Below, in pieces: positions 12,837 through 61,145 of a DNA stretch of 61,145 bases. This DNA comes from Saprospiraceae bacterium (lineage in GTDB: Bacteria > Bacteroidota > Bacteroidia > Chitinophagales > Saprospiraceae), in NCBI GenBank assembly GCA_029251525.1, contig JAQXDE010000037.1:1-61145 (forward strand), given 5' to 3'. The stretch's first letter is position 1, and every line of letters begins with the position of its first letter. The translations under genes and the position numbers were made by a program. A model generated the notes under the pieces. That model was not told where the DNA came from. It did no database searches and saw nothing but the letters and a program-made list of their open reading frames with translations.

Positions 12837-15800
12837 TTATTTGGTCAATGTTATATCTCCCTTAAAAATCTTCACCAAACCATCTTTAAATTCAATTTCA
12901 GCAAAGAAAATAAATACATTTGGGTTTAATTTTTCTCCATTAAAAAATCCATCCCATCCTTCAGTTGGGTCATTCGGTTGGAAGTTTTCATTTTCAAAAA
13001 TAACATCGCCCCATCGATTGAAAATTCTAAAGTTTTTTACTCTTGCAACATCTTGCCCTGCATTAATGTAAAAAATATCATTGAATCCATTGTCATCAGG
13101 GCTAAACCCATTTGGGATAAATACATTTTGGTTTTTTTCTACAAAAATTGTTATTGAATCAACTGCTAAACACCCATTCTCATCAAACATAGTTACAGTA
13201 TAAGTGGACTGATCAACTGGAGAAACAAATTGACTTAGGCAATTATCACAATTTGAATTAGCTGACCAAATAATTTCCGTAGGAGTAAAACTTAGTATGG
13301 ATTGAATCTCTATACTATCGCCTAGTTCTATTATTTCATCAAACCCTAGATCCACTTCTACCTCCAAAGGTTCAGGGACTATCACTTGATCTGAAATCAA
13401 ACAACCATTATCGTCCGAAATAGTCAAGGAATGACCTCCTGGAGAAACAAAATCTAAAACTGTGGGAAAATCCTGTAATACTGCAAATCCACTCCCATCT
13501 AATGAGTAACTGTAATTCCCTGATCCTCCAAATATATTATCCAATATGATTTGTCCATCAAATATAGCTGAACAAGGGGGTGCATTTGAAATTATTACTA
13601 ATTGAATTTCACTAGGCTGTATAAGTGTGGTAGATGCAGTAGTTGAACAACCTAAAGCATCAGTAATTGTCACATCATAATTCCCAGCAAATACATTTTG
13701 GATATTTGGAGATGTGCTTCCATTACTCCAAAGGAATTGAAAAGGTGCTGCTCCTGATATTGGAACAGCTATGGCCGCACCATCATTTTCATTAAAACAA
13801 CTAATATTAAAATTTCCAAATTGGGAAGTAGGCTGTACAATCGCCTCTACCTCCTCAACCTGAATGGTAATTTGAGTTGTAGGTATAACACCAATACAGC
13901 TATTATTTAAAGGAATAACCGCCTCAAGGGAGTAGATTGTAGTTACTGATGGAAGAACTGTAATTGTGTGCCCATCAGAAATTCCATTCAATAATATTGG
14001 AGGGTTATTCCCCTCTGAAAACTCTACGTTATAGGTTGAACCTCCAGTCAAATTAAAGGTCAAAATAGCCTCGGTGTTAGGACAAATTATATTAGTTGAA
14101 GCTGAAATTGTTCCAGTAATTTCAGGTTCAAAAGTCAAATCAACATTAATGATACTATCGCAGCCATTCATGTTCCCACCTGGAATAATTTCAGTACCTG
14201 ATGCATTTAACTCATCGTAAACGATGCTATTAACAATAATACTTTCACCATCGCATAATGTTTGAATTAAATCATTTGTGGAATTTAAAGTTACAGAAAG
14301 TTCAATTTCAACAATTTGAGAAAAACAAGTTCCACTTGAAACTATCCCATAAACTGATGTACTGGCTGATGTAACTGTTGTTGAACTTGGTATAGTTGCT
14401 CCAGCATCCGTATACCAACTGACCATATTTCCGTTTCCTCCATTAATTGAGTTTTCTAACAATGTTAAATTAAATGTAGCGATACCGCCACCTTCATCAC
14501 ATTGAGAATTAATAGTTGAAAATGCAATTGGATTATCCTCAATTGCCAAAACAACTTCCACTATTTGAGACGAACAAACTCCATCGGTCACGATTGCATA
14601 GACAGAGGCATTGCCTGATGTAATTGTAGTTAAACTTGGTATGGTAGCTCCATCATCCATATACCAACTGACCATATTTCCGTTTCCTCCATTAATAATA
14701 TTTTCTAGTGCAGTTAAATCAAAAGTTGCTGTTCCATTTCCATCATCACATTGAGTATCTGTTGTAGAAAATGCTGATAAATTATTATCAACAGCCAAAA
14801 TGATTTCAACTATGGGAGAGTAACAAATTCCATTTGTCACAATCGCGTAAACAGACGTATCCCCTGTAAGAATTGTGGTCGGACTTGGAATAGTTGCCCC
14901 TTGATCTGAAAACCAAATAACAGTATTCCCACTTCCACCTGAAACTATATTTTCTAACGCAATTAAATCAAAAATGGCTATTCCACTTCCATCATCACAC
15001 TGGATATCTGTTGTAGAAAATGCAGTTAAACTATTTTCAACAATCAAGGTAATTTCTACTATTTGGGAGGAGCAAATTCCATCTGTTACGATTGCGTATA
15101 CAGAAGCATTTCCTGAAGTAATTATAGATGGACTTGGTATGGTAGCTCCGGCATTAGTATACCAACTAACCATATTTCCACTACCACCATTGACTGAGTT
15201 TTCTAAAGTAGTCAAATCAAAGATAGCTGTTCCATTCCCTCCATCACATTGAGTGTCTGTCGTAGAAAATGCAACTATAATGTTTTCAATTGTTAGATTG
15301 ATTTCAACAATTTGAGATAAACAACTCCCATCAGTTACGATTGCGTATACAGAGGTATTTCCTGATGTAATTGAAGTTGAACTTGGTATTGTTGCCCCGG
15401 AATCCGTGTACCAAATGACCGTATTTCCAGTTCCTCCGTTGACTGTATTTTCCAAAGTGGTCAGATCAAAAGTAGCAGTTCCATTGCCGTCATCACATTG
15501 AGTGTATATAGTTGAAAATGCAGATAAACTATTTTCAACGATTAAGGTGATTTCTACAACTTCAGACAAGCAATTCCCATCAGTTACAATTGCGTAAACA
15601 GATGTATTTCCTGAGGTAACTATAGTTGGGCTTAGTATAGTTGCTACTGAATCTGTGTACCAATTGACCGTATTCCCATTTCCTCCATTAACTATATTTT
15701 CTAAATCTGCTAAATTAAAAGTGGCAGTTCCATTGCCATCATCACATTGAGTATCTGTTGTTGGAAATACAGTTAAATTATCAAAAATAATTAACTCTAC

Positions 15801-18800
15801 CTCTACTATTTCGGAAAAACAAACTCCATCTGTCGCTATTGCATAAATTATAGTTGAAGCAGAAACAAAGGGTGAAGCAATTGCTAATGTTAAGTTTTGG
15901 TCCGCAAACCAGAACACCTGATTGCCGTTATTAAGGTTAATTACATCTTCCTGCATATCCAAATCAAAAGAGGCAGTTCCATTGCCATCATCACAACTAG
16001 ACAGTGAATAGTTATTAACAACAGGAACTTCAGGAGATAAAGTCAACGAAATTTCAACTGGTATGGAAGAACAACTACCATTAACTACAATTGCATATAT
16101 CAAAGTTGGAGTAGTTTCAAATTCATCAAAAGGTGGCGAAAGTGGAATATTAGCTGCAGCATCCTCAAACCATAAAATGCTATTTCCATTTCCTCCAGTG
16201 ATATTATCTTGAAAATTCAAATTAGTCAAATCATAAATTGCTGTACCTGTTCCATCATTACAAGCAGAAAGAGAAGTTGGATTTGCCTCAATGTCATTAC
16301 TTATTTCAAGAGTCACCTCAACTGCCTCTGCGGTACAACTTACATCATTAACTACAGCATAAATTGTTGTTGCAGATGAATTAAAAGGTGATGAAATCGA
16401 GTTGGTTAAGTTTACATCTGAATACCAATTGATTGGATTTCCATTTCCTCCATTAACGATATTTAAAATTGCATTAAGATCGAACTCTGCTGTCCCATTT
16501 CCGCTATCACAATTTGATAATGTTGCTGAATTAGCTTCTGGAAGGTTTGCTACGGTCAAATCAATTCCTTCAGCTGAAGAAGTACAATTTGCATCCGAAA
16601 CAATTGCATAAATTGTTGTAGAACTTGAATTAAAAGGTGATGAAATTGAATTAGTTCCGTTAGCATTTAAGAACCAAGAAACGGTATTTCCATTTCCTCC
16701 ATTTACAATATTTTCGATTGTGCTTAAATCAAAAATTGCCATACCCCCACCCTCATCACAAAGAGTAGCTGATGCACCTGAAATCTCAGGCGTAGTAGTT
16801 ATATTTAAATCAATACTAACTGAACTGGACAAGCAATTTCCATTATCAACTATTGCGTAAATTGTCGTTGCTGAACTTAAGTATGGTGAATTAATCGTCA
16901 TTGTTGCATTGGCATCTGAATACCACAGAACAATATTCCCATTCCCTCCGTTTACAATATTTTCTAAAGTCGTCAAATCAAAAGTAGCAGTACCATTACC
17001 ATCATCACAAAGAGAGGTTGATGTTAGATTAGCAACAGGTAAATCCTCTACTACTAAATCAATTGCTATTGGTTCGGATGTACAATTCATATTTCCTACA
17101 ACTGCATAAATTGTTGTTGTACCCGAAAAATAAGGAGAGGCGATATTATTTGTACCATTAATATCTGAATACCAATTAACTAGATTTCCTGAACCAATTG
17201 TATTCTCCAAAGACGTTAAATCAAATGTTGCCATTCCTATTCCTTCATCACAAAGTGTAGCTGAAGATGCATTACCAGTTGGAACATTCTCGACTGTCAA
17301 ATTAATTGCTACTGGTTCTGAAGAACAAAACCCTACAGTGACCGTAGCGTAAATTATTGTCGTCGATGTATTAAATGGCGAAGATATCAACAAAGTACCT
17401 CCTGAATCTGAGAAAAAATCAACAGGATCAGAGGTACCCCCGTTTATTGTACTTTCTAAAGTTGTAAGGTCAAATATAGCTGTACCATTTCCAATATCAC
17501 AGAGTGTTGCAAAAGTTGTATTTGCGGTTGGTTGGTTTTCTACCATTAAATCCACAGGCACCGGTTCCGAAATACAATTACCGATTGTAATGATTGCATA
17601 AATTACTGTTGTACCCGCATTGTAGGGAGAAAAAATCTGGTTCGTAATACCCATATCTGAATACCATAAGACTGGATGATTTGTACCTCCATTCACAGTA
17701 CTTTCCAAACTCGTTAAATCAAAATCTGCTAAACCACTAACATCATTAATGCATTCTGAAGCAGTAGTTGAAACACCTGCAGGAGTAGAGTTAACAATAA
17801 GATCTACAGCAACCGGTTGAGAATTACAAAGTGCTCCATTAACAACCGCATAAATTATGGCTGATCCAGAATTATATGGTGAGGAGATCAAATTCGTCCC
17901 TCCTGAGTCTGAATACCATGAAACTGCATAAGAGGATCCACCATTAACTATGTTTTCCAAAGACATTAAATCAAATTCAGCAGTTCCATTTGTTGTCTCA
18001 CACTCTTCCCCACTAGTTGCAAAAGCAGCGGGTGTATTTATTACATTTAGATCAACTTGAACTGGTACTGACTCACAACCTGCCACATTTGAAACTACTG
18101 CATAAATCTGCGTTGTAGAGGTATTAAACGGAGAAGTTAAAATCGGGTTAGTCCCATTAGCATTTAAAAACCAATTGACTGAATAAGCTGGATTGGTATT
18201 TACAACCAAAGCAAGAGTAGTTAAATCAAAATTAGCCGTTCCATCTCCAATATCGCAATCATCTCCAATGGCTGAATTGGCAGCAGGTGCATTTTCAACA
18301 GACAAAATAATTTCAGCAATGTTTGAGGGACAATTACCATTGGAAACAATGGCATAAACTGTAGTTGAAGCTGTATTGTAAGGTGAAGAAATTAAAAGAG
18401 TAGCTCCAGCATCTGAATACCAATTTATAGTATTTCCAATTATATTATTAATATCATTTTCGATAAGTGTCAAATCAAAATCTCCTGTTCCATTCCCCAA
18501 GTCACAAATTACGGCAATTGCATTATTTGCAATTGGAGCATCTTCAACATTTAAAGAAATTGGGATAATTGGTGATGTACAGTTTCCATCACTGACTTCT
18601 GCGTAAATTGTTGTTGACCCAGTATTGTAAGGTGAAAAAATTGGAAAGCTCCCATTCATATCCGAATACCAGTTTACAGTATTCCCTTGTGTACTATTTA
18701 TATCAAGTGCTAAAACATTAAGATCAAAATTTGCAGTTCCATTTCCTAAATCACAGTTTGAGGCAGTAGTAATATTTGCTGTTGGAACAATATCAATTGA

Positions 18801-21473
18801 TAATCCAATTGCGACAATTTGCGAAACACAATTAGCATTGGTCACTTGTGCATAAACAATTGTTGAAGCTGTTGAATAGGGAGATGAGATTGGAATAGTT
18901 GCATTTGAATCAAAATACCAATTAACAGTATTCCCAAGTTCATTATTTACATTAAGTCCAATATTATTTAAATCAAATGAAGCAGTTCCATTTCCCTCAT
19001 CACACTCTGAGGCCGAAGTACTATTTGCTATAATTCCTGGAGTTACTATCAACTCTACAGGAAGAATAGGGGAAGTACAAATTCCATTGATGGTTTGCAC
19101 ATAAACAAACGTCGACGAAGAAAGATAACTATTTGGAAGCAAAATTTGGTTTAGACCATTAACATCTTCAAACCAAGAAACTGTAGCTCCACTACCTGCA
19201 TTAACAGTATTTTCAACTGTAGTTAAATCAAAAACTGCTTGATTTCCAAATACAGCACACTCTTGTATTGTTGTGGATACTACAGGAGGAAATGGAGTTA
19301 CAAAAAGTGTTACTTGAGTAGCCAACGAGGTGCATGGAGCACTACCAATAACTGCATAAACAATTGTGTTATCTTGAGTTGTCAATAATGAACCAGGAAT
19401 AGGCATGGTAGCTGATGCATCTGTAAACCAAGCAACTGGTAGTCCTGTTCCTCCATTTACATCATTATTAATTGTTGACAAATCAAATTCTCCAAAAGTT
19501 GGAATTATTGTTGATTCACAAACAGTCATTGTAGAAGGAAAACCTATTGGTGTCTGAACCACAGTCAAGGTTATAGGTACACCAATTGAAGGACATCCAT
19601 TTTCAGTAACCGTGGCATAGACAACCCCGGATCCAGAAGTGTAATTTGCCCAATTGATAATTGGAATATTTCCACCAACATCCATAAACCATTCTACCGG
19701 TAACCCTGTTCCTCCATTTACAATAGTAGTAACCGTTGATAAATCAAATGTAACGGTACCAGTTGATGAACAAGCTGATAAACTTGCTGGAAATGCTGTT
19801 GGAACTGAATTAACAATTAATTGAACAGCAACGGGATCAGATTCACAATTCGTGGAATTAGATGTAGCATAAACTGTGGTCGATGTTGTTGAATAATTTG
19901 AAGGATTATTAATTGTTGTAGATAACAACATATCTTCATACCAATTAACAGAATTGGAGCTTCCACCATTCACAACAGTATTTAATCCTAATAAATTAAA
20001 TGTCGATGCATTCCCTCCCTCATCACATTCTATTATTGGACCAGCAGCAAATGCTGTTGGTGTTTCTTCTATATCCATAAAAAATGGAGTAGGATCTACT
20101 GTGCCAGGACATCCAGCATTATCAGTTATTCCGGTCAAAGTAAAAGTTAAATTTCCAAGTATAAAATTAGGTACTGATAAGGTAGCTGTATTTATATCAT
20201 ATGTTGGTATAAGCCCTTGAGAACAAACATTAAGTTCAAAATTAATTGAAGTCACTTGAATTGTCACTGGGAAATTATTTACAAATGGAGGTAAATCTAG
20301 TACCCCATCCAATGTATAAGGAGGAGCAGTTGGCCCCGCAATTGTGATGGTTACAATTGAACAATTATCAGAGCATAAAACACCACCTCCTGACAATGAA
20401 GCATTAGGTCCTCCTCCTGATCCAGTAAATGTAATCTGAGCCTCTCCAGCAAAATTAGAATAGATTGGACAACCATTCAATGCCGTCACAGAAACTAAAG
20501 AAAAGGTAGTACTTGCTGATAGTGAAACTATTTCAGTATATCCATTTGTAATATCTGATAATGTAAAATTAGATGATCCATCGGTGTATACTACATCAAA
20601 TGGACCACCAGTTGATGGTAAATTAAACGTTAAGGTTTCATTATATGATCCACATCCCCATGCACAAATAGCACAAGAAATTGACATATCATTAGTGGAT
20701 ATAGGTAAAATTGAAGGCGGAGGGTTGTTATTATAGTCTGTACAATTAGTGTAAGAGGTCCAATTGGTTGGATCTTTAATACGATTAATCCATTCTAATT
20801 GAGTAGTTGCCGTTGTTGGACCAGTATAATTAACATAATTAGTAGTACCACCCGTCGGATTCATGAAAAAACAAGGATCAACATCTGGATGTAAATTTGA
20901 TTGTTGAGAACTTCCATCAGCATTCCAAATAGTTCTTGTATTAAAACCATAGAGCACCTTTCCATTATAAGTTGCATCATGTTCTCCAGTTTCACCGCCA
21001 TTGTCCCAAACACCACCTTGCATCACATACATTTGATCTCCACCAGAATTCATATTGACATTCCTATCAAAAGTAGAGGGAACATTTAAATTTATAAATG
21101 TCCAATCTGGATTGGCTGTTTGAGTAGCTGTAAAGCTTGTAATCAAGGTTAACTCAAAACTTGTCCCAGCTGGAATAGTCCCACCAGTTCGAGTCATTCG
21201 ATAGGTTCCTTCTGAATCTCCCCAGAGACCAGCGGAAACACGTTCCCAACCATTATCAGTTATGTCAAATTCTGTCCCATTTGTAATATCTTTAAAAGCA
21301 ACAAATGTAACCACATCAGTCCCCCCAGAGCCACCACAAGCAGCACTATTAGCATTTACCCCAAGTATGGCTATATCACCACCTTGTAGATCAGTTTGAG
21401 CATTCAAATTTTTGGGAAGAACAGAAAGAAGGACAACTATAACGAGGTAGTTGATAATTTTAAATGACTGCAT
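12837..21473 (-). CDS. giant repetitive surface protein with gliding-type (CHU_C) T9SS C-terminal domain
   Basis: This 2878-residue secreted protein begins with a signal peptide (cleavage near NLNAQ). Residues about 27-250 hold an N-terminal domain (GGDIAILGVNANS... FDITDNGWER). From about residue 470 to 2395 there are 23 tandem repeats of 81-88 residues with the pattern CDDGNGTATFDLTTLEN, WYTD, SVYAIVTDGNC and a closing IVEITLIVEN. Each repeat has two cysteines at fixed places, suggesting one disulfide per Ig-like unit. After these come a SprB-type repeat (FNISCFNENDGAA ... VTITDALGC) and a last domain FIPNGFSPDDNGFNDIFYI ... FNRWGDVIFEN, the gliding-associated type B sorting domain. Probable role: T9SS-exported surface adhesin or filament. 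A TAnnTTTG promoter lies just upstream. Confidence 0.93.
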   Translation of the reverse strand: MQSFKIINYLVIVVLLSVLPKNLNAQTDLQGGDIAILGVNANSAACGGSGGTDVVTFVAFKDITNGTEFDITDNGWERVSAGLWGDSEGTYRMTRTGGTIPAGTSFELTLITSFTATQTANPDWTFINLNVPSTFDRNVNMNSGGDQMYVMQGGVWDNGGETGEHDATYNGKVLYGFNTRTIWNADGSSQQSNLHPDVDPCFFMNPTGGTTNYVNYTGPTTATTQLEWINRIKDPTNWTSYTNCTDYNNNPPPSILPISTNDMSISCAICAWGCGSYNETLTFNLPSTGGPFDVVYTDGSSNFTLSDITNGYTEIVSLSASTTFSLVSVTALNGCPIYSNFAGEAQITFTGSGGGPNASLSGGGVLCSDNCSIVTITIAGPTAPPYTLDGVLDLPPFVNNFPVTIQVTSINFELNVCSQGLIPTYDINTATLSVPNFILGNLTFTLTGITDNAGCPGTVDPTPFFMDIEETPTAFAAGPIIECDEGGNASTFNLLGLNTVVNGGSSNSVNWYEDMLLSTTINNPSNYSTTSTTVYATSNSTNCESDPVAVQLIVNSVPTAFPASLSACSSTGTVTFDLSTVTTIVNGGTGLPVEWFMDVGGNIPIINWANYTSGSGVVYATVTENGCPSIGVPITLTVVQTPIGFPSTMTVCESTIIPTFGEFDLSTINNDVNGGTGLPVAWFTDASATMPIPGSLLTTQDNTIVYAVIGSAPCTSLATQVTLFVTPFPPVVSTTIQECAVFGNQAVFDLTTVENTVNAGSGATVSWFEDVNGLNQILLPNSYLSSSTFVYVQTINGICTSPILPVELIVTPGIIANSTSASECDEGNGTASFDLNNIGLNVNNELGNTVNWYFDSNATIPISSPYSTASTIVYAQVTNANCVSQIVAIGLSIDIVPTANITTASNCDLGNGTANFDLNVLALDINSTQGNTVNWYSDMNGSFPIFSPYNTGSTTIYAEVSDGNCTSPIIPISLNVEDAPIANNAIAVICDLGNGTGDFDLTLIENDINNIIGNTINWYSDAGATLLISSPYNTASTTVYAIVSNGNCPSNIAEIILSVENAPAANSAIGDDCDIGDGTANFDLTTLALVVNTNPAYSVNWFLNANGTNPILTSPFNTSTTQIYAVVSNVAGCESVPVQVDLNVINTPAAFATSGEECETTNGTAEFDLMSLENIVNGGSSYAVSWYSDSGGTNLISSPYNSGSAIIYAVVNGALCNSQPVAVDLIVNSTPAGVSTTASECINDVSGLADFDLTSLESTVNGGTNHPVLWYSDMGITNQIFSPYNAGTTVIYAIITIGNCISEPVPVDLMVENQPTANTTFATLCDIGNGTAIFDLTTLESTINGGTSDPVDFFSDSGGTLLISSPFNTSTTIIYATVTVGFCSSEPVAINLTVENVPTGNASSATLCDEGIGMATFDLTSLENTIGSGNLVNWYSDINGTNNIASPYFSGTTTIYAVVGNMNCTSEPIAIDLVVEDLPVANLTSTSLCDDGNGTATFDLTTLENIVNGGNGNIVLWYSDANATMTINSPYLSSATTIYAIVDNGNCLSSSVSIDLNITTTPEISGASATLCDEGGGMAIFDLSTIENIVNGGNGNTVSWFLNANGTNSISSPFNSSSTTIYAIVSDANCTSSAEGIDLTVANLPEANSATLSNCDSGNGTAEFDLNAILNIVNGGNGNPINWYSDVNLTNSISSPFNSSATTIYAVVNDVSCTAEAVEVTLEISNDIEANPTSLSACNDGTGTAIYDLTNLNFQDNITGGNGNSILWFEDAAANIPLSPPFDEFETTPTLIYAIVVNGSCSSIPVEISLTLSPEVPVVNNYSLSSCDDGNGTASFDLDMQEDVINLNNGNQVFWFADQNLTLAIASPFVSASTIIYAIATDGVCFSEIVEVELIIFDNLTVFPTTDTQCDDGNGTATFNLADLENIVNGGNGNTVNWYTDSVATILSPTIVTSGNTSVYAIVTDGNCLSEVVEITLIVENSLSAFSTIYTQCDDGNGTATFDLTTLENTVNGGTGNTVIWYTDSGATIPSSTSITSGNTSVYAIVTDGSCLSQIVEINLTIENIIVAFSTTDTQCDGGNGTAIFDLTTLENSVNGGSGNMVSWYTNAGATIPSPSIITSGNASVYAIVTDGICSSQIVEITLIVENSLTAFSTTDIQCDDGSGIAIFDLIALENIVSGGSGNTVIWFSDQGATIPSPTTILTGDTSVYAIVTNGICYSPIVEIILAVDNNLSAFSTTDTQCDDGNGTATFDLTALENIINGGNGNMVSWYMDDGATIPSLTTITSGNASVYAIVTDGVCSSQIVEVVLAIEDNPIAFSTINSQCDEGGGIATFNLTLLENSINGGNGNMVSWYTDAGATIPSSTTVTSASTSVYGIVSSGTCFSQIVEIELSVTLNSTNDLIQTLCDGESIIVNSIVYDELNASGTEIIPGGNMNGCDSIINVDLTFEPEITGTISASTNIICPNTEAILTFNLTGGSTYNVEFSEGNNPPILLNGISDGHTITVLPSVTTIYSLEAVIPLNNSCIGVIPTTQITIQVEEVEAIVQPTSQFGNFNISCFNENDGAAIAVPISGAAPFQFLWSNGSTSPNIQNVFAGNYDVTITDALGCSTTASTTLIQPSEIQLVIISNAPPCSAIFDGQIILDNIFGGSGNYSYSLDGSGFAVLQDFPTVLDFVSPGGHSLTISDDNGCLISDQVIVPEPLEVEVDLGFDEIIELGDSIEIQSILSFTPTEIIWSANSNCDNCLSQFVSPVDQSTYTVTMFDENGCLAVDSITIFVEKNQNVFIPNGFSPDDNGFNDIFYINAGQDVARVKNFRIFNRWGDVIFENENFQPNDPTEGWDGFFNGEKLNPNVFIFFAEIEFKDGLVKIFKGDITLTK
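14288..20065 (-). repeat. coding tandem array: 23 repeats of about 250 bp
   Basis: The array lies inside the giant gene and has a mean period near 251 bp (about 84 codons). Counting from the N-terminus, repeats 1-4 are diverged, repeats 5-17 share SPYNTxSTTIYA-like middles, and repeats 18-23 (about 14.29-15.79 kb) form a tight subfamily with AFSTTDTQCDDGNGTATFDL and GATIPSPTTITSGNTSVYAI. The C-terminal block therefore looks like the most recent expansion. Assemblies may collapse or expand this region. Confidence 0.9.
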
Positions 21474-48469: not shown

Positions 48470-49312
48470 TTAAAACTCTGCCATGATTTTATCATTAGCT
48501 TTTGCATAACCTGCGCTTCCTGCAGCTTTAGCAACAGCAGAAGATTTGCCTATCGTTATCATTGCTTCTTTTTTCATCCCAAGCTTTGCTTCGATTTGAG
48601 CTTGCAATCTTAATTGCCAATACCTTTCTCCTTTTTGGTTAGCCATTGTTGCCCACTCGTGTGCTTTCTTCATGTCTTTCCCATTGTCATAGTAGTATTT
48701 TGCAGCTGAATAAAACTCACCTCTTGTTGTTCCTGCCATTGCAGATTCAATCTCCTTCATTACCTGTTTGTCATAAGAAACCTCTAATTTAAAAGGAACA
48801 TACCAGTTACCCCATTTCAAAGACATAGTTGCTCCACTAGCTTTAACATCTGCAATATCAATAGCAAAGGACTCCACAAAATTAGACCGTTTATATCCTC
48901 TAACTTTGAATCGAACTAACTCATCCTTTTTATTATATTTTGAAACATTTCCTCCTATTGTCAAATCCTTGTACAACATGATTGTCCAATCAACAGGATC
49001 AGGAATACTGTACAAAGCATAAGTTCCAGCAGGAACAGCATTACCCTCGATTTTAACATCATCAGTAAAAGTAATCTTAGTCGCTCGGTTAGCTCCTGTT
49101 CTCCAAATACTTCCAAATGCCTCTACATCTACAAAAAGAGTACGTCCTTTAACATTTGGCCGACTATAATCTAACTTAACAGTAGTTAATCCAACTACTT
49201 GCTCCATTTTACAGCCTGGACTTGGAGCTGGTGTATTAATTTGCGCCATTGCACTATTGCTGACCATCATAACAGCAGCAATCATAAATAAACTGGTCAA
49301 TAATTTTTTCAT
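48470..49312 (-). CDS. secreted DUF2911 protein with C-terminal helical (TPR-like) region
   Basis: This 280-residue protein has a signal peptide (NSAMAQ). Residues about 30-190 match DUF2911: VKLDYSRPNVKGRTLF, GSIWRTGANRATKITF, VPAGTYALYSIPD and MSLKWGNWYVPFKLEV. The rest is helical and TPR-like (AKYYYDNGKDMKKAHEWATM). DUF2911 proteins are common in Bacteroidota and their function is unknown; the domain looks like a beta-sandwich binding module. A TATTTTTG promoter element lies 46 nt upstream and a shared terminator lies downstream. Confidence 0.9.
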   Translation of the reverse strand: MKKLLTSLFMIAAVMMVSNSAMAQINTPAPSPGCKMEQVVGLTTVKLDYSRPNVKGRTLFVDVEAFGSIWRTGANRATKITFTDDVKIEGNAVPAGTYALYSIPDPVDWTIMLYKDLTIGGNVSKYNKKDELVRFKVRGYKRSNFVESFAIDIADVKASGATMSLKWGNWYVPFKLEVSYDKQVMKEIESAMAGTTRGEFYSAAKYYYDNGKDMKKAHEWATMANQKGERYWQLRLQAQIEAKLGMKKEAMITIGKSSAVAKAAGSAGYAKANDKIMAEF

Positions 49313-49357
49313 CGTAAGATTTTATTTTTTTAATTTTATTAATTACTTTTTTCAGGA

Positions 49358-49365
49358 CAAAAATA
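49358..49365 (-). promoter_or_regulatory. -7 element for the DUF2911 gene
   Basis: The minus strand reads TATTTTTG (TAnnTTTG), 46 nt before the ATG at 49312. A TTTTG lies about 12 nt upstream, which is short spacing for a -33 element. The stretch from here to 49817 holds no gene. Confidence 0.45.
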
Positions 49366-49817
49366 ATATTTCTTTCTCAAAATTTATAAACTAATTATCT
49401 TGATTACTTAACATACAATCAAAGGTAAACTACACTACATTTTCGGTATTTTATGTTCACAGATAATTCTTCACATTTAATTTAAAAATATTGTTTTTGG
49501 ACAATTAATTAGGAAAAATAATCCAGTTTAATCTAACTTTTCATTCTTACTTGAGGTAACATAATCATCTATAAAGTTGTTTTACAAACATTATTTGAGA
49601 TCTTGATTTCCCTGAAATTAATTATAACTACACCTCAAATCATGTTATCTATTTTTTAATATTAAAGATAAATTTGGTTTAAACTTAATATAACTGTAGG
49701 TTTTTTGAACAATTGCTGCTCCAATAAAGAAGGAATAATCTTTTTAATTCATTGAAATTTTGCCGCTGTTCTCTCGAGTAATGGATAAGGAATTTCATTT
49801 TTCTCCCATGTTACACT

Positions 49818-49866
49818 AAAAAGAAAAGCTCTTTTTGCACACTAACAAAAAGAGCTTTTCTTTTTT
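49818..49866 (-). terminator. intrinsic terminator of the tolC-like gene
   Basis: Arms AAAAAGAAAAGCTCTTTTTG (49818-49837) and its complement ending at 49866 form a long, almost perfect stem with an 8-nt loop. It lies 60 bp downstream of the TolC-family stop codon. Confidence 0.85.
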
Positions 49867-49924
49867 CCTAATCATAGATAATAATCAAATTTAGAAAACA
49901 TCTGTAACCCAAAGCTCCTCGATA

Positions 49925-51370
49925 TTATAACCTCAACTTTTTTCCCTCGTAAAATTCCACAACCATTTTTTTCAAAATAAACTCATACTTCGCCAATACC
50001 AATTCGATTTCTGCGCTATCTCGCTCATTCAGAATGGTTTTATATTCGAACGCATTAATATTTCCAAGGCTTAATCTATTTTTCATGGAAACGATGGATG
50101 CCTCTAGCAAAGATAAGGTCTTCTCGGCAGCTTCTAATTTTTTAGCAGCAGCCTGAACATCTAAAATAGCATTTTGAATTTCAATACGCAGTTGTTGTTT
50201 AAACTGAATATTCTCTTCTTGCTGTTGTCGATAATTGACTTGTGCAATTTGGGAATTTAGCTTGGAAGCTTTTTTATCTAAAATTGGAAGGTAAATATTT
50301 AAACCAACTCCGTACCCCAAATTTTCACCTAATTGACTAAAGTATTTTTTATTTTTTGTTTCAACTCCACTAGTTATAATTTCAGAGGCAGTTATATAAT
50401 TATCAGGACCAGGGATTAAAGTTATAAAATTTGATGTAACGGTATCCATAAAAGAATTTGAATCATCAGCTTCCATATTTCTGGAAGAATAATTCGCCCA
50501 AATACCTCCAAACAAACTCACAGAAGGCTTTTTCTCTGCTAAAGCAATTTGTTTATCAAGCTTCAAACTTTTTAATTCCAACTCACCACCTTCTATACTT
50601 GGCTGAGTTTTTAATGCTCCGGAATATATTGTTTTGAAAGAAAGCTTATTGATCGACTCATCTGGCTGGACTATTTTTAATGGCTTCGCTATTTTTAGTG
50701 ATTGAGAAGGATCGAGTTCCAAAATATTTTTCAATGAAACATAGCTTCTATCCAAATAATTTTGGCGATCAATTATTTTCTGTTCATCTCTCGCTTTTTG
50801 AATCTCAACATTTCTCAAATCAACATTTGATTGTAATCCTGCATTTACAAGATTTTTTGTTTGACGCATCCAGGATTCCGTTTGTGATAAATTTTTCTTA
50901 GCATTTGACAATTGCTCTTCCGCCATCAATATGGTCAAATAAGTACGTAATACGTTTAATGATAAATCCTTGGTTAGTTGATCAGCATCATATTGCGCAG
51001 ATCGAACAGCTAAAACAGATTTTTTCATTCGTTTTTTAGCCTGGTTTCCATCGTACAAGGTGTAATTACTCTCTAATTGAAAACTATTATAAAGTGTAGA
51101 TGAATTTCCAAATGCATTAGTAGATGGATCAATTGTTCGTCCTAAATTTAATCCAAAATTGGTAGAAAACCCCAGATCGGGTTGTCGTTCTGCCTCTGTT
51201 TTTTCTAGTATTATTTTGTTTTTCTCTACTTCCAGATTTGCATGACGCACAGTAGATGTATTACTTTCTTGTACATGCTGGATACATTTTTCCAATGACC
51301 AAGTAGGCTGAGCAATCAACACATTTCCAAAAACTAAAACACTAAAAATGATTAAAGTTATTTTTTGCAT
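49925..51370 (-). CDS. TolC-family outer-membrane efflux protein
   Basis: This 481-residue protein has a signal peptide (VLIAQ). It shows the two-fold TolC pattern: WSLEKCIQHVQESNTST at the start, LGLNLGRT-like FGLNLGRTIDPSTNAFGNSS, long alpha-helical hairpins and an L-P-I-L motif in GVGLNIYLPILDKKASKLN. The protein forms an outer-membrane channel and periplasmic tunnel for a tripartite exporter. It is divergent from the ABC transporter/HlyD pair at 51847-55349, sharing the 476-bp intergenic region. That gives a complete type I secretion set from one locus. Confidence 0.9.
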   Translation of the reverse strand: MQKITLIIFSVLVFGNVLIAQPTWSLEKCIQHVQESNTSTVRHANLEVEKNKIILEKTEAERQPDLGFSTNFGLNLGRTIDPSTNAFGNSSTLYNSFQLESNYTLYDGNQAKKRMKKSVLAVRSAQYDADQLTKDLSLNVLRTYLTILMAEEQLSNAKKNLSQTESWMRQTKNLVNAGLQSNVDLRNVEIQKARDEQKIIDRQNYLDRSYVSLKNILELDPSQSLKIAKPLKIVQPDESINKLSFKTIYSGALKTQPSIEGGELELKSLKLDKQIALAEKKPSVSLFGGIWANYSSRNMEADDSNSFMDTVTSNFITLIPGPDNYITASEIITSGVETKNKKYFSQLGENLGYGVGLNIYLPILDKKASKLNSQIAQVNYRQQQEENIQFKQQLRIEIQNAILDVQAAAKKLEAAEKTLSLLEASIVSMKNRLSLGNINAFEYKTILNERDSAEIELVLAKYEFILKKMVVEFYEGKKLRL

Positions 51371-51846
51371 AAAAATTGGATAAATAAAAAAAATAGAAAA
51401 TGATTATTTTACATTTAAATAAAATATTCAATAGTATTGGCAGATAAAAAATTATGAATAGGCTTTTAAGCTTTTCAAAAAGGCTAATTTTCTTTTAAAA
51501 TTATTACAAAAAAAAGAACCAAACAAAACAAACTTATAGCAATTTTGTAAAATTACGTTATTATTTAATGATTAAAAAAAAAATATGACACCCTCCATAA
51601 TTACCCATTAAAAAAAAAACTATATAAACTCGACATATTATACAAATCCGGTATAGTTATTGATGCATACTAATTGCTTATCATACGGCGTATAGAATAT
51701 TTGCAATCTGCTGATTGTCAAATAATTACACGAATTACAACCAATTAAAAAAAGAAAACTTTACCTCTCACCTCCTTGATTTTGCTGTTCTTTTGCAAAA
51801 AAGACAATAATTACGTTGATGAGATCAAAAATTTCAGCTAATTCAA
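51371..51846. other. divergent intergenic region of the type I secretion locus
   Basis: This region should hold the promoters for both sides, but no exact TAnnTTTG was found; the best near-match is TACGTTG close to the transporter start. I looked for a small precursor with a double-glycine leader on both strands and saw none. Confidence 0.35.
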
Positions 51847-54036
51847 ATGCCGATTTCTTTTCCTTTTTACGAACAATTAGATGCGATGGATTGCGGAGTA
51901 GCGTCTTTACGAATGATAGCTCGTTATCATGGTAGACATTACAATCCGGAATACTTACGCTCCATTTCCTATCCAGATCGAGAAGGTGTCTCCCTAATGG
52001 ATATTAGCGATGCAGCTGAGCATATTGGTATGCATTCTTTGGCCGTAAAAGTTCCATTTGATGTTTTAATTGAAGAAATACCTGTTCCTTTTGTTGCACA
52101 TTGGCGACAACAACATTTTATCGTCATATACAAAATAAAGAAAAATAAAGTTTGGGTAGCTGATCCTGCTCATGGTAAAGTGACTATAACTAAGGACGAA
52201 TTCATGGATGGTTGGGCGAGTGATAAAGTAGAGGAAAAAGACGTAGGAGTAATTTTGATATTAGAACCAACACCAAAATTCTACGAACGTGATGGTGAAA
52301 AGTCCAACAAAATAAGTTTTGGTTATCTTTTCAAATATTTTAAAAGTTATACTGGACTAATTGGGCAGTTAATCATTGGATTAATGGCCGGTGCATTTTT
52401 GCAAATTGCCTTTCCATTTTTGATGCAATCTGTGGTCGATACTGGAATTGAAAATCAAGACTTAGACTTTATATATGTAGTCTTAATAGCTCAATTAGTT
52501 TTATACTTTAGTCAGACAATGGTCGAATATCTTAGATCATGGATACTTCTTTATATTGGTTCGAGAGTCAATATTAGTATGATCAGTGACTTCTTGTTAA
52601 AAATGATGCGGCTGCCAATACGATTTTTTGATACTAAATTGATTGGAGATTTATTGCAAAGAATTTCAGACAACCGTCGAGTAGAATATTTTTTAACATC
52701 TTCGGCTTTGTTTACAGCGTTCTCGCTGGTAACATTCGTGATTTTTACAATAATCTTAGCAATTTACAATAAACTTATTGTATCGGTATTTTTACTTGCT
52801 ACCATTTTTTATATTGGATGGGTTTTATTCTTTTTGAAAAAACGAAAAGAGTTAGATTATCGTCGATTTGATCAAATGGCTGATAATCAAAGTACGCTGA
52901 TTCAACTTTTAAATGGCATGCAAGAAATCAAATTGCATAACGCGGAAAAACAAAAAAGATGGAAATGGGAACGCATCCAAGCTAAACTCTTTAGGATTAG
53001 CGTGGGCTATTTGAAACTGGAACAAATACAAAGTGTTGGAGCTAATTTCATCAATGAATTGAAAAATATTTTCATTACATTTATCGCAGCTCGTGCGGTG
53101 ATTCAAGGAGATATGACCTTGGGGATGATGATGGCTGTTCAATATATTATTGGTCAATTAAACGGACCAATCTCACAATGGATAAATTTTATAAAATCTT
53201 ATCAAGATGCGGAAATAAGTCTTGAACGACTCAATGAAATCCATTTAAAAGAAGAGGAAGAAGATTTGGAGGAGAAAATGAATATTCTTCCTGGTAATAA
53301 AGATTTGACTTTAGAAAAAGTATTTTTTCAATACGGTGGTCCAAGCTCAAACATGATTTTGAAGGATATCAGTTTAACTATTCCAAAAGGAAAAAAAGTG
53401 GCAATCGTTGGAACAAGTGGAAGTGGAAAAACAACTTTACTAAAACTATTATTAAATTTTTATCAACCTACCCAAGGAAATGTAAAATTGGGTGAAACTA
53501 CCCTTTCCAATATCAGAAATAGGATATGGAGAGAAAAATGTGGCGTTGTAATGCAAGATGGCTACATTTTTTCTGATTCCATTGCCAATAATATTGCACT
53601 CGGAGATGAAGTTGTAGATAAAAAGAAATTACTTCATGCTGTAAAGGTAGCAAATGCCCAAACATTTATTGAAGGTTTACCTCTCGGCTACAACACAAAA
53701 ATAGGGGGAGACGGAATCGGTCTGAGTCAAGGGCAAAAACAGAGATTATTGCTCGCGAGAGCAGTTTATAAAAATCCGGAATTTATTTTCTTAGATGAAG
53801 CGACCAATGCATTGGATGCATATAATGAGATGATTGTTATGGATAATTTAGAGGAGTTTTTTGAGGATAGAACAGTATTAATTGTTGCGCATAGATTAAG
53901 TACTGTAAAAAACGCTGACATGATTATTGTTCTTGAAGATGGCGAAATTATCGAACAAGGAACTCACAAGAGTTTAACTGAATTGAAAGGCGCATATTAT
54001 TATTTAGTGAGAAACCAATTAGAACTTGGAGCTTAA
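51847..54036 (+). CDS. peptidase (C39)-containing ABC exporter
   Basis: This 729-residue protein has three parts. Residues 1-140 are a C39 peptidase: catalytic Cys16 in MDCGVASL, His90 in WRQQHFIV and Asp106 in VADPA. Residues about 165-440 are the six-helix exporter membrane domain. Residues about 490-729 are the nucleotide-binding domain with Walker A GTSGSGKTT (about 522), signature LSQGQKQR, Walker B FIFLDEATNALD and H-loop VAHRLST. Such exporters cut leader peptides ending in double Gly and export the rest. All catalytic residues are present, so the peptidase should be active. HlyD follows after 14 bp and TolC is divergent. Confidence 0.94.
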   Translation: MPISFPFYEQLDAMDCGVASLRMIARYHGRHYNPEYLRSISYPDREGVSLMDISDAAEHIGMHSLAVKVPFDVLIEEIPVPFVAHWRQQHFIVIYKIKKNKVWVADPAHGKVTITKDEFMDGWASDKVEEKDVGVILILEPTPKFYERDGEKSNKISFGYLFKYFKSYTGLIGQLIIGLMAGAFLQIAFPFLMQSVVDTGIENQDLDFIYVVLIAQLVLYFSQTMVEYLRSWILLYIGSRVNISMISDFLLKMMRLPIRFFDTKLIGDLLQRISDNRRVEYFLTSSALFTAFSLVTFVIFTIILAIYNKLIVSVFLLATIFYIGWVLFFLKKRKELDYRRFDQMADNQSTLIQLLNGMQEIKLHNAEKQKRWKWERIQAKLFRISVGYLKLEQIQSVGANFINELKNIFITFIAARAVIQGDMTLGMMMAVQYIIGQLNGPISQWINFIKSYQDAEISLERLNEIHLKEEEEDLEEKMNILPGNKDLTLEKVFFQYGGPSSNMILKDISLTIPKGKKVAIVGTSGSGKTTLLKLLLNFYQPTQGNVKLGETTLSNIRNRIWREKCGVVMQDGYIFSDSIANNIALGDEVVDKKKLLHAVKVANAQTFIEGLPLGYNTKIGGDGIGLSQGQKQRLLLARAVYKNPEFIFLDEATNALDAYNEMIVMDNLEEFFEDRTVLIVAHRLSTVKNADMIIVLEDGEIIEQGTHKSLTELKGAYYYLVRNQLELGA

Positions 54037-54050
54037 TTCCAAATAGTAAA

Positions 54051-55349
54051 ATGGAAGAACACAACAGGATAGAACTCAGAAGTGATGATGTTCAAGAGAT
54101 CATCGGAACACCACCACGTTGGATTGTACGTTGGGGAACACTTGTTGTAACAGGTGCTATTTTTTCAATGGTAGCTATGAGTTTATGGGTACAATATCCT
54201 GATAAAGTAAGAGGCCGAGTCTCCATCACTACTAAAATTGCTCCAGTAAGGGTCAATGCTCAAAAATCAGATTTGATCTCAAAAATTTGGGTAGAAGATG
54301 GAGATAATGTGAAAGAAGGTGACCTTCTAGTAGAGATGCAAAGTGCAGCAAATTTTGAAGATGTGGAGGAATTAGAGGAATTTACAAATGATTTAAATAA
54401 TGCTGATCAATCTGAATTATTGGAATTTATATCCTCCGATTTTAAGCAATTAGAAATTGGAACATTGCAACCTTTACATGCTGAAGTGCAAATGAATTTT
54501 GAAAATTTTCAGTTTTATGAACAAAACAAAGCTGCTGCAAAAGAAATTATTCAATATAAAAATCAAATGACAGGCATCAATTCTGGAATAAAAATTCAAA
54601 ACCGAAAATTAACTGATGCCAAAAAATCTGAAAAATTAGAACGAAATAAATATAATCGAATAAAAACACTTGTTGCCAGTAACGACAAATCTCCTCAAGA
54701 ACTGGAAAACCAAGAAAAAATTTGGATTTCATCTCAAACTAGAGTGAAAGAGATTGAAGACGAAATAAATCAACGAATGTTACGAATTTCAGGACTTCAA
54801 AAAAATATTACTGACATTCAAAGTTCAAGTAGCGAAACCAATAATCAAAATTACATCAACCTTCGTAGCAGTATCAATAATCTTGTGGGTGCCATTGACC
54901 GGTGGAACGAGGAAAATTTACTAATTGCTGCTATGCCTGGAAAAATCTCCATGGTACAAAATTGGAGTGAAAAACAATATATTGAACAAGGAAAAGAAAT
55001 CATGGTCATTCTTCCAGAAAACAAGAAAGACAATTATTTTACTCAACTTTTTATCCCCGTTCAAGGTTCAGGAAGAATTCAAAAAGGACAGCGAGTTTTA
55101 TTAAAACTAGACAACTTTCCTTACCGAGAATTTGGACAATTAGAAGGCGAAGTAATTGATCTTCCTGGCCTCTCACGCGAAGAAGGCTTGCCAGTAAAAA
55201 TAAAATTGATCAATGGTCTCATCACTCAAAGTGAAAAAGAATTAAAATTGGAACAAGAGCTACTGGGTAATGGTGAAATTATTACCGAAAATAGAAGTGT
55301 ATTTGTTCGTATTTTTGAAAATGTTGTTAAACCACTTTTTCAAGAATAA
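54051..55349 (+). CDS. HlyD-family periplasmic adaptor
   Basis: This 432-residue protein has one N-terminal membrane helix (about 30-48, VVTGAIFSMVAMSLWV) after a cytoplasmic head. A biotinyl-lipoyl half (VRVNAQKSDLISKIWVEDGD), a long coiled coil (about 150-260), a second lipoyl half (LLIAAMPGKISMVQNWSEKQ) and beta domains follow (LKLDNFPYREFGQLEGEV). This is the adaptor that links the ABC exporter to TolC. The gene lies 14 bp after the exporter and must be co-transcribed with it. Confidence 0.92.
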   Translation: MEEHNRIELRSDDVQEIIGTPPRWIVRWGTLVVTGAIFSMVAMSLWVQYPDKVRGRVSITTKIAPVRVNAQKSDLISKIWVEDGDNVKEGDLLVEMQSAANFEDVEELEEFTNDLNNADQSELLEFISSDFKQLEIGTLQPLHAEVQMNFENFQFYEQNKAAAKEIIQYKNQMTGINSGIKIQNRKLTDAKKSEKLERNKYNRIKTLVASNDKSPQELENQEKIWISSQTRVKEIEDEINQRMLRISGLQKNITDIQSSSSETNNQNYINLRSSINNLVGAIDRWNEENLLIAAMPGKISMVQNWSEKQYIEQGKEIMVILPENKKDNYFTQLFIPVQGSGRIQKGQRVLLKLDNFPYREFGQLEGEVIDLPGLSREEGLPVKIKLINGLITQSEKELKLEQELLGNGEIITENRSVFVRIFENVVKPLFQE

Positions 55350-59250: not shown

Positions 59251-60834
59251 TTATCCTTTCATTTGTTCATTTAAATAATCTGCTAATTCACCAATCAAAA
59301 CTTCCTTTTGCACTTGCTCCATCCACTCTTTTTTGTCCGTGAATTTATCTGCGATTTCTTTTCCTAACTTTAAATTTTTAACCGTCGCAATTCCTGCTTC
59401 TGCTTCATTCGCTCCAATTAGAACTACAAATGGACAATTCTTATCATCAGCATAAGCCATTTGTTTTTTCATTTTCTTTTTATCCATACCATAATAAACT
59501 TCTGTTTCGATTCCAGCAGTTCGTAAGTCCCTAGCAACTTTTTGATAGTGTGGCATCAATTCTTCATCGAAGTAAGCGATAAAAACTGGTCCATCTTTTC
59601 TTTTCGGAGCTTGGTTCGTCAACATCAACAATTCTGCTAATCGATCCACACCTATCGAAGCTCCTGTCGCTGGGACTTTAATCCCTAACAAATTTTCTAC
59701 CAAGCCATCATATCGACCACCCCCACAAATAGAACCTATTCGTCTTTCCACTCCTTTAGAATCAATATAACTTTGTAATGATTCTACCTCATAAACTGGT
59801 CCAGTATAATATGCCAAACCCCGAACTAATGATGGATCAAAAATAACTCTTTCCTCATCAAAATCTAAAGCGGAAAGAATCGAATCTATTTTTACCATTT
59901 CTTGAATTCCCTCTTGAGCTATTTCATTTTGAATGTCCAATTTTCTCAAATCAGTCAATACTTCCTTTCTTTTTCTTTGAATAGAAAATCCTTTAATAAA
60001 ATCAGCAACACTCCTCACTAATTTTTCATCCAAACCTAAACCTTTTACTTCTGCACCCGAATCATCCGTTCTACCTATCCCTAATTCTAATGCCACTTTA
60101 TCCAAACCAATTTTATCCATTTTATCAATAACTCGAATAATATTTTGCTCTGTCAAATCATCTTTTACTCCAAGCTCTTTTAAATAACCTGTCAAAATTT
60201 TCCGATTATTAACTTTGACAACATAACTCTTCCTAGGCAGGCCAATCGCCTCTAAAGCATCAGACAAGACCATACAAACTTCTGCATCGGCAGCTACATC
60301 ATTTGTTCCAACATTATCAAAATCTAATTGCCAAAACTCCCGAAAACGTCCTGGACTTAATTTAATCTCATATCTATAAACAGGTCCAAACTGATACCGG
60401 CGAAACAAAGGTGGTTTCATTTGGTTCAGCATATGACGTTGATACTTTTCCAATAAACCTTCCGCATATCTACGAGCCAATGGTGAAGTCAAATCATATC
60501 GCATTGACAAGTGTTGATTTTCCATTACAACATGTGCATCCTCATCTCTCAACTCTGAACCATCTGCTCGCAAAACAGGTTCTACTTCTGGATTTTTAAA
60601 AGAATATACTCCTTTATCCACCGTATCATCGTCTGGTAAATATTTTCCCAAACAATCAGCATATTCTAAAATAGGAGTATCCCAATGCTCAAAACCATAA
60701 CTTTTATAAACCTGGCCTGCAGAATTAATAATCTTCCATTTTAATTGGTTTAAACTTGGATCAATATCTCGAAAGCCTTTGACCTTTCTGGCTACTGTGC
60801 CTCGCTTATTTTCTACTTGCTTTTTATTTGCCAT
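59251..60834 (-). CDS. hisS: histidyl-tRNA synthetase, alphaproteobacterial-like type
   Basis: This 527-residue protein is longer than common bacterial HisRS (about 420-460). Class II motifs are present: motif 2-like GPVYRYEIKLSPGRFREFWQ (about 150-169), a histidine-binding LVRGLAYYTGPVYEVE, motif 3 region GASIGVDRLAEL, and a C-terminal anticodon-binding domain. It differs from the E. coli type: RYDLT (112-116) replaces RPEGT, and FREFWQLDFD and GLAYYTGPVYEVE match the divergent alphaproteobacterial form. That form is known to charge a tRNA-His lacking G-1 and having A73. The tRNA-His gene just upstream has exactly these features. The gene has its own TAATTTTG promoter 17 nt before the ATG. 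Confidence 0.95.
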   Translation of the reverse strand: MANKKQVENKRGTVARKVKGFRDIDPSLNQLKWKIINSAGQVYKSYGFEHWDTPILEYADCLGKYLPDDDTVDKGVYSFKNPEVEPVLRADGSELRDEDAHVVMENQHLSMRYDLTSPLARRYAEGLLEKYQRHMLNQMKPPLFRRYQFGPVYRYEIKLSPGRFREFWQLDFDNVGTNDVAADAEVCMVLSDALEAIGLPRKSYVVKVNNRKILTGYLKELGVKDDLTEQNIIRVIDKMDKIGLDKVALELGIGRTDDSGAEVKGLGLDEKLVRSVADFIKGFSIQRKRKEVLTDLRKLDIQNEIAQEGIQEMVKIDSILSALDFDEERVIFDPSLVRGLAYYTGPVYEVESLQSYIDSKGVERRIGSICGGGRYDGLVENLLGIKVPATGASIGVDRLAELLMLTNQAPKRKDGPVFIAYFDEELMPHYQKVARDLRTAGIETEVYYGMDKKKMKKQMAYADDKNCPFVVLIGANEAEAGIATVKNLKLGKEIADKFTDKKEWMEQVQKEVLIGELADYLNEQMKG

Positions 60835-60850
60835 AATTTACTCTTTAAAT

Positions 60851-60858
60851 CAAAATTA
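60851..60858 (-). promoter_or_regulatory. -7 element for hisS
   Basis: The minus strand reads TAATTTTG (TAnnTTTG), 17 nt before the ATG at 60834, with TTTTTTG about 16 nt further upstream as a candidate -33. Confidence 0.5.
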
Positions 60859-60870
60859 AAACGGTGACCA

Positions 60871-60916
60871 AAATCAAAAAATTAATGATTGAATTAAACT
60901 TAATGTTTTTTGATTT
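60871..60916 (-). other. hairpin in the tRNA-His/hisS spacer
   Basis: Arms 60871-60885 and 60900-60916 are complementary except for a 2-nt bulge. No T run follows on the minus strand, so it does not look like a terminator; it overlaps the -33 region of hisS. Confidence 0.4.
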
Positions 60917-60950
60917 CAACTTTGATTGAAATTTTGATAACTGATTTAAA

Positions 60951-60987
60951 ACAAAAAAGCACCATCCATATTTCTGAATGATGCTTA
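60951..60987 (-). terminator. intrinsic terminator just after tRNA-His
   Basis: On the minus strand AAGCATCAT pairs with ATGGTGCTT (one G-T wobble), followed directly by TTTTTT. It lies 4 nt past the end of the tRNA gene and separates it from hisS. Confidence 0.7.
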
Positions 60988-60990
60988 ATG

Positions 60991-61064
60991 TCCCCGCGAC
61001 TAGATTCGAACTAGTGACTTCCTGAACCACAATCAGGCGCTCTAACCAACTGAGCTACGCAGGG
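60991..61064 (-). tRNA. tRNA-His (GTG) lacking encoded G-1, with A73
   Basis: A full cloverleaf reads on the minus strand: acceptor CCCTGCG/CGCGGGG, D arm GCTC-loop-GAGC, anticodon arm CCTGA-TTGTGGT-TCAGG with anticodon GTG, T arm ACTAG-loop-CTAGT. Position 1 is C paired with G72, position -1 is T and the discriminator is A. Ordinary bacterial tRNA-His has an encoded G-1 facing C73; neither is present. CCA is not encoded. An intrinsic terminator follows, then hisS in the same direction. Confidence 0.95.
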
Positions 61065-61125
61065 AAAATATGATAATAATTTCTATTCATTTTCCTAATT
61101 ATACTAGGTTTTTCAAAATGGAGTG

Positions 61126-61133
61126 CAAATTTA
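61126..61133 (-). promoter_or_regulatory. candidate -7 element for tRNA-His
   Basis: The minus strand reads TAAATTTG (TAnnTTTG), about 62 nt before the tRNA 5' end. The matching -33 region would lie beyond the window. Confidence 0.35.
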
Positions 61134-61145
61134 AAAGAATTATAA

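Follow-up and report, generated by a model that had tools for sequence, protein, structure and literature searches.

The extra G of tRNA-His (G-1) is nearly universal. Histidine tRNAs without it are known from the Alphaproteobacteria, from some protists and from the mitochondria of C. elegans (PMC9976931, PMC7590224, PMC6471195, PMC3937112, PMC5370408, PMC3875453), and in the His pair of C. crescentus U72 has been described as an identity element (PMC9976931, PMC7590224). The ancestral glutamine of motif 2 in histidyl-tRNA synthetase (HisRS) contacts G-1:C73, and the alphaproteobacterial enzyme has Gly123 instead (PMC3937112). In the same source the loss of G-1 together with a matched HisRS was called a unique synapomorphy of the Alphaproteobacteria with a likely single origin in bacteria, was used as evidence on the placement of SAR11, and the transfer of foreign tRNA identity rules was argued to be rare (PMC3937112). 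A synthetase found together with tRNAs of foreign identity is described for CPR bacteria, where archaeal TyrRS and TrpRS occur with the matching tRNA identity; other amino acids are concerned there, and the Discussion of that paper says nothing of the two genes being neighbours (PMC5370408). The literature that we searched, in which the founding papers on the alphaproteobacterial system were not covered, so that absence from print is not established, held no G-1-less His pair from Bacteroidota or Planctomycetota.

In the stretch of 61,145 nucleotides analysed here (the window), which comes from a genome of the Saprospiraceae (Bacteroidota), we found a single tRNA-His(GTG) gene, with hisS beginning 156 nt downstream of it (Table 1). 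The tRNA scored 68 bits (ARAGORN, Rfam; gathering score 29), and its acceptor, read directly as CCCTGCG/CGCGGGG, is paired throughout from C1:G72 to G7:C66 with one wobble (U4:G69). With T at position -1 and A at position 73 it has no encoded G-1 and no G-1:C73 pair, and the CCA end is not encoded in the gene. The original prediction had named C1:G72, T at -1 and A73 as the peculiarities of this tRNA; direct reading bears out all three, and the objection that the gene might be a pseudogene fails, score and fold both being intact. The mature tRNA would presumably start at C1, without an extra base.

Table 1. Features of the tRNA-His/hisS region in window coordinates
Feature	Position	Strand	Basis or remark
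hisS, divergent HisRS, 527 aa	59251..60834	-	NCBIfam hisS and Pfam domains
HisRS C-terminal tail	59254..59352	-	in the divergent type; not found in three aligned ordinary Bacteroidota HisRS
HisRS motif-2 loop RYEIKLSPGRF, residues 154-164 (ordinary: RADRPQKGRY)	60343..60375	-	alignment
Terminator-like hairpin (12 pairs) with a U run after it	60957..60986	-	between tRNA-His and hisS
tRNA-His(GTG)	60991..61064	-	C1:G72; A73 at 60991; U-1 at 61065; anticodon 61028-61030
Exact 119-nt match to the end of contig C23 (window genome)	61027..61145	.	contig-end overlap
Leader ORF MNRNYYHIFPA, then stop	61055..61090	-	one His codon, 61070-61072; stop is U8A9G10 of the tRNA
TAAATTTG, resembling the Bacteroidota -7 box	61126..61133	-	-33 box would fall beyond the window end

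The synthetase lies above the NCBIfam hisS cut-off (337 versus 287 bits) and has the catalytic and the anticodon-binding Pfam domains, with PF03129 at residues 417-493. An identity as HisZ (the regulatory subunit of ATP phosphoribosyltransferase) was ruled out, since PF03129 is present, the hisS equivalog cut-off is passed and the hisZ cut-offs are failed. Three properties set the divergent HisRS apart: its motif-2 loop, its C-terminal tail and its position in the tree. The loop reads KLSPGRF where ordinary Bacteroidota HisRS mostly have RPQKGRY, the ancestral Gln being replaced by Ser160 with Pro161 next to it; an exception among the carriers is the HisRS of genome G572, which has Gln at that column. 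The RYDLT block, which had been taken as evidence of a special type, is not diagnostic, for it is also found in the three ordinary Bacteroidota HisRS of our first alignment.

The pair resembles that of the Rhizobiales, Rhodobacterales, Caulobacterales and kin (e.g. Caulobacter crescentus) in having A73 and no encoded G-1, in a motif-2 loop without the ancestral Gln-Lys, and in an enzyme that belongs to one larger HisRS clade with theirs. The window genome (G000) also lacks a match to the tRNA-His guanylyltransferase Thg1 (PF04446, 0 matches at the Pfam cut-off; the control search matched 1 of 14 genomes). Unlike the alphaproteobacterial pair with its G1:U72, the window branch has C1:G72 (U1:A72 in two relatives), a motif-2 loop that is one residue longer, a HisRS outside the alphaproteobacterial clade, a tRNA-His beside hisS and a leader ORF with His codons. 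The ordinary Bacteroidota pair shares the enzyme family, the RYDLT block and the tRNA body, but encodes G-1:C73, has the RPQKGRY loop, lacks the C-terminal tail (in those aligned) and has its tRNA unlinked to hisS. What differs from the descriptions that we found is C1:G72 instead of G1:U72 and the order of a His-codon ORF running up to or into tRNA-His, then a terminator, then hisS.

The two types of tRNA-His go one to one with the two types of HisRS. Among 120 family genomes sampled, 112 yielded a HisRS match (none in the other 8), and the six genomes with the divergent HisRS are exactly the six with the A73 pattern of tRNA-His. The G-1...C73 pattern was found in 93 of the 120 genomes, none of them among those six, and neither pattern in 21. 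These counts support the matched non-canonical pair that had been predicted from the window alone. Outside the family, every tRNA-His that could be read alongside a divergent HisRS has A73 as well: in 11/11 alphaproteobacterial genomes, in 4/4 genomes titled Planctomycetota, in G184, G156, G055, G014 and G039, and in G313, G314, G315, G321 and G323. In G316-G318 we looked for a tRNA-His and found none.

In the HisRS tree the window enzyme belongs to a Bacteroidota clade (14 rows, support 100/100), which is sister to the enzymes of the G-1-less Alphaproteobacteria and the Planctomycetota (support of the join 100/99), with the ordinary Bacteroidota HisRS separate (100/100). The 17 alphaproteobacterial rows, taken from loci L125-L198 (74 loci among the matches listed in the collection scan), form a clade of their own (100/96) with the window clade outside it. 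An origin inside the Alphaproteobacteria is thereby ruled out, within the 17 alphaproteobacterial sequences sampled among the matches listed. Of the original prediction, the part that stands is a matched, linked, non-canonical pair whose HisRS has its relatives in the alphaproteobacterial type and falls apart from the ordinary Bacteroidota enzymes. Identity with the alphaproteobacterial pair, or descent from it, is not supported, since the HisRS is sister and not nested and the 1:72 pair differs.

This 1:72 pair is G1:U72 in 11/11 alphaproteobacterial genomes and in 3/4 of those titled Planctomycetota, C1:G72 in the window branch and U1:A72 in two relatives of the window type (G580 and G530). 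The HisRS tree requires three or more changes of this pair, which in the window branch is therefore unlikely to be a strong identity element. In the window genome the combination of C1:G72 and A73 is found, besides tRNA-His, only in tRNA-Pro (31 tRNAs typed), so that the acceptor end alone presumably cannot identify histidine, and the anticodon would carry much of the His identity. Within the window clade G1:U72 is accompanied by an Asp in motif 2, and C1:G72 or U1:A72 by other residues; we do not claim this Asp as the reader of G1:U72, because it is a single change on the tree and the alphaproteobacterial enzymes combine Gly with G1:U72. For G316-G318, the genomes without a tRNA-His match, G1:U72 had been predicted in advance. 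A separate observation concerns locus L162 (G324, titled Planctomycetaceae), where a tRNA-His with C1:G72 lies beside hisS on a separate branch next to the alphaproteobacterial HisRS, which reads as a second switch away from G1:U72.

A wider sample of the family, searched with a pattern that requires A73, yielded 23 loci in 23 of 398 genomes and 6 of 112 genera: g1 (4/5 genomes), g162 (13/14), g124 (2/2), g189 (1/1), g164 (2/9) and g5 (1/21). In all 23 carriers and in five named relatives (28/28; G313, which is among these five, is apparently identical with G557), hisS lies 26-193 nt downstream of tRNA-His on the same strand. The linkage of tRNA and synthetase that had been noted in the window thus holds for every A73 cassette found in the family. 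By comparison, a tRNA-His was found in the flanks (mostly 1.5 kb) of 0/48 ordinary hisS loci and in the flank of 2/74 of loci L125-L198 (alphaproteobacterial and other loci not of the window type, among the matches listed), neither of the two titled Alphaproteobacteria. Linkage is not universal, since G184 and G156, which belong to another class, have the two genes at separate sites (about 2.8 kb apart; different contigs).

The genes that flank the cassette differ by genus and are shared by close kin only (G000 with G273; G315, G256 and G313), with the exception of an aromatic amino acid lyase that adjoins hisS in G184, G156 and G314. A lyase gene of this kind (PF00221) was observed beside hisS at five Bacteroidota loci (L237, L238, L120, L034 and L037) with both HisRS types, and is probably hutH. 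The lone A73 carrier of genus g5 (G597, contig C147; L282, L295) has a HisRS that is 70% identical to that of g164, and is either a recipient of a transfer or a misbinned contig.

In our opinion these observations are explained best, and with good probability, by a self-contained histidine-charging cassette which, in several genera of one family, took the place of the ordinary Bacteroidota pair, partly by lateral transfer. A HisRS without the motif-2 Gln-Lys would read a tRNA-His without G-1:C73, with A73 and the GUG anticodon as the expected determinants of its specificity, and tRNA-His and hisS, being linked, would displace the ordinary pair as a whole unit. The cassette would be orthogonal to the ordinary His pair, and its identity elements and the co-transfer of tRNA-His and hisS are deduced from sequence comparison. 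We read the spread as transfer of the linked unit combined with vertical inheritance within genera.

The main competing explanation, which we consider unlikely, is ancient presence followed by loss: an ancestor had both systems, or the G-1-less one, most lineages reverted and there was little transfer. In line with it, all window-type Bacteroidota HisRS form one clade, and inheritance within a genus looks vertical, as in g162, where all genomes but one carry the A73 tRNA-His. In a tree of rpoB (28 rows from 30 genomes, two having no rpoB match) six changes of the carrier label are needed, three of them forced by starred branches; these changes could be losses, and many losses would also give a patchy distribution. 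Most rpoB branches within the family are weakly supported, and a single clade of G000, G273 and G284 was not rejected (AU p 0.133). One clade of all eight carriers (family and near kin) was rejected, however (AU p 0.0056), the cassette is patchy within g164 and g5, its neighbourhoods are unrelated between genera, and a return to G-1:C73 requires that the whole ordinary pair is regained.

Still less probable is that hisS alone was transferred and that the tRNA-His of each host was then mutated in place to fit. The tRNA bodies do vary by genus and resemble host tRNAs (the window tRNA-His and the ordinary one of G064 are 91% identical over 56 nt), and the three changes of the 1:72 pair on the HisRS tree could be understood in the same way. 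A tRNA-His mutated in place would have kept its old site, whereas in all cassettes tRNA-His immediately precedes the divergent hisS (28/28, as against 0/48 flanks of ordinary hisS), and a terminator hairpin lies between the two genes in 24/24.

RNase P commonly prefers U-1, and it may be asked whether the U-1 of these tRNAs is left in place by RNase P, so that an extra 5' base is kept and U-1:A73 substitutes for G-1:C73. T at -1 is the most constant position of the leader, occurring in 29/31 Bacteroidota-type G-1-less tRNA-His leaders as compared with 12/30 other tRNAs of the window genome, and this constancy may serve RNase P or may reflect pairing of U-1 with A73. We regard retention of U-1 as rather improbable, because U-1 is also what RNase P commonly prefers, the cassette loci (T or A at -1 in 28/28) include two with A-1, and the G-1-less Alphaproteobacteria are reported to do without the extra nucleotide altogether (PMC9976931, PMC6471195).

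An assembly or binning artefact, with the contig end stemming from another organism, is hardly credible: the genome is a draft with the pair at a contig end, and many carriers are metagenome assemblies, but the exact 119-nt overlap ties the window to contig C23, which carries rpoB of the window genome, eight C23 genes upstream of the pair have the same order in G273, the second genome of the genus, and no other hisS was found in a genome that is 100% complete. The assembly (5.25 Mb, 66 contigs, 1.27% contamination) has one hisS match and 33 tRNA matches, of which 32 were typed (30 among the loci given and two seen as neighbours; the remaining one is 84 nt long and unlike tRNA-His) and only one is tRNA-His, so the second, canonical tRNA-His/hisS pair that was searched for as a possible refutation was not found in this draft. 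An apparent second, partial tRNA-His of 38 nt at G000:C23:187090-187127 is the contig-end overlap (exact over 119 nt), not an integration scar or a second gene. Elsewhere in the window, genes for a DUF2911 protein, an OEP-type outer membrane protein, a C39-peptidase ABC transporter and an HlyD protein lie in a row (48470-55349), which looks like an export system for double-glycine peptides, and an ORF of 2878 aa is found at 12837-21473 (minus strand).

The leader of the his operon is known as a leader-peptide attenuator with His codons. The cassette has similar parts, a short His-codon ORF before a His-related gene together with a terminator hairpin (18/24 cassettes; the window copy with one His codon), but here the tRNA-His gene lies between leader and terminator and no antiterminator pairing was found. 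The literature that we searched for a His-codon leader beside a tRNA gene held no similar layout. All 24 cassettes examined have, between tRNA-His and hisS, a hairpin with 10-17 pairs and a U run behind it, with a mean of -14.8 kcal/mol as compared with -3.5 for shuffled sequences. In 7/18 leader-bearing loci fewer than 45 nt separate the terminator tail from the ATG of hisS, which leaves little room for a promoter of its own, so that hisS may depend on read-through.

An ATG ORF that is 5-12 codons long and contains between one and four His codons (at least two in 15) precedes tRNA-His in 18/24 cassettes, its stop lying at -6 or -5 or being U8A9G10 of tRNA-His itself. The ORF of the window is not significant by itself (p 0.05) and is backed by its relatives; the leader ORF as such was first spotted by eye and the shuffle test was designed afterwards, and as the loci are related the p values are not independent. 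A His-codon leader ORF was sought in other tRNA-His leaders (0/29), and an ORF of this kind with the tRNA's own cognate codon before the other tRNA genes of the window genome (0/29). An ATG leader is lacking in L283 and L292 (both genus g162) and a His leader in L281, L246, L282 (g164 and g5) and L120. The stops at -6 vary among related loci (TGA, TAA, TAG) and His is written both CAT and CAC, which argues for translation of the leader. In Bacteroidota the promoter consensus is TTTG, a spacer of 19-21 nt and the -7 box TAnnTTTG; against this consensus 11/24 cassettes reach the full score, and the box ends at -50 to -54, so that the leader ORF would lie within the transcript. The unit, which the original prediction had set at 59251-61064, thus reaches further, to the leader ORF and the promoter-like box at 61055-61133.

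We infer from this arrangement that the leader may sense the charging of tRNA-His. Classical attenuation by pairing of leader and terminator was not borne out by modelling, as the terminator stays stable in every modelled ribosome state (probability at least 0.83 in 22 loci, by equilibrium folding only and with assumed ribosome footprints). Pairing of the leader with the 3' arm of the terminator was significant by shuffling (p < 0.05) in 2/18 leader loci (L279 and L245) and with the 5' arm in 0/18, and capture of an arm by upstream RNA had no consistent direction. Because equilibrium folding gave no antiterminator, tRNA folding or processing by RNase P is a better guess for the target, if charging is sensed. 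The first His codon stands at -14 or -15 in 13/18 leader loci, and a ribosome starved there would just clear tRNA-His, while one that reads on to the leader stop would cover the 5' strand of the tRNA; charging of tRNA-His would thus gate its own maturation and possibly the expression of hisS. Putting these elements together, we tentatively suggest, with more doubt than confidence, that the His system independent of G-1 is ancient, has crossed phyla as an orthogonal cassette and replaces the canonical pair in a single step, that the alphaproteobacterial trait is one lineage of several and not an invention of that group alone, and that the C1:G72 branch adds a novel form of control, a His-codon leader which would gate the maturation of tRNA-His and perhaps hisS as well.

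A pair of the kind described as an alphaproteobacterial "synapomorphy" occurs in Bacteroidota and in records titled Planctomycetota; in one family its tRNA-His and synthetase are neighbours, which makes it look transferable. From the co-replacement of tRNA-His and hisS it would seem that genetic-code rules can be passed on as one unit. How an identity rule changes without a lethal intermediate becomes testable in close relatives with and without the cassette, and the pairs are candidate orthogonal pairs with a drifted 1:72 element.
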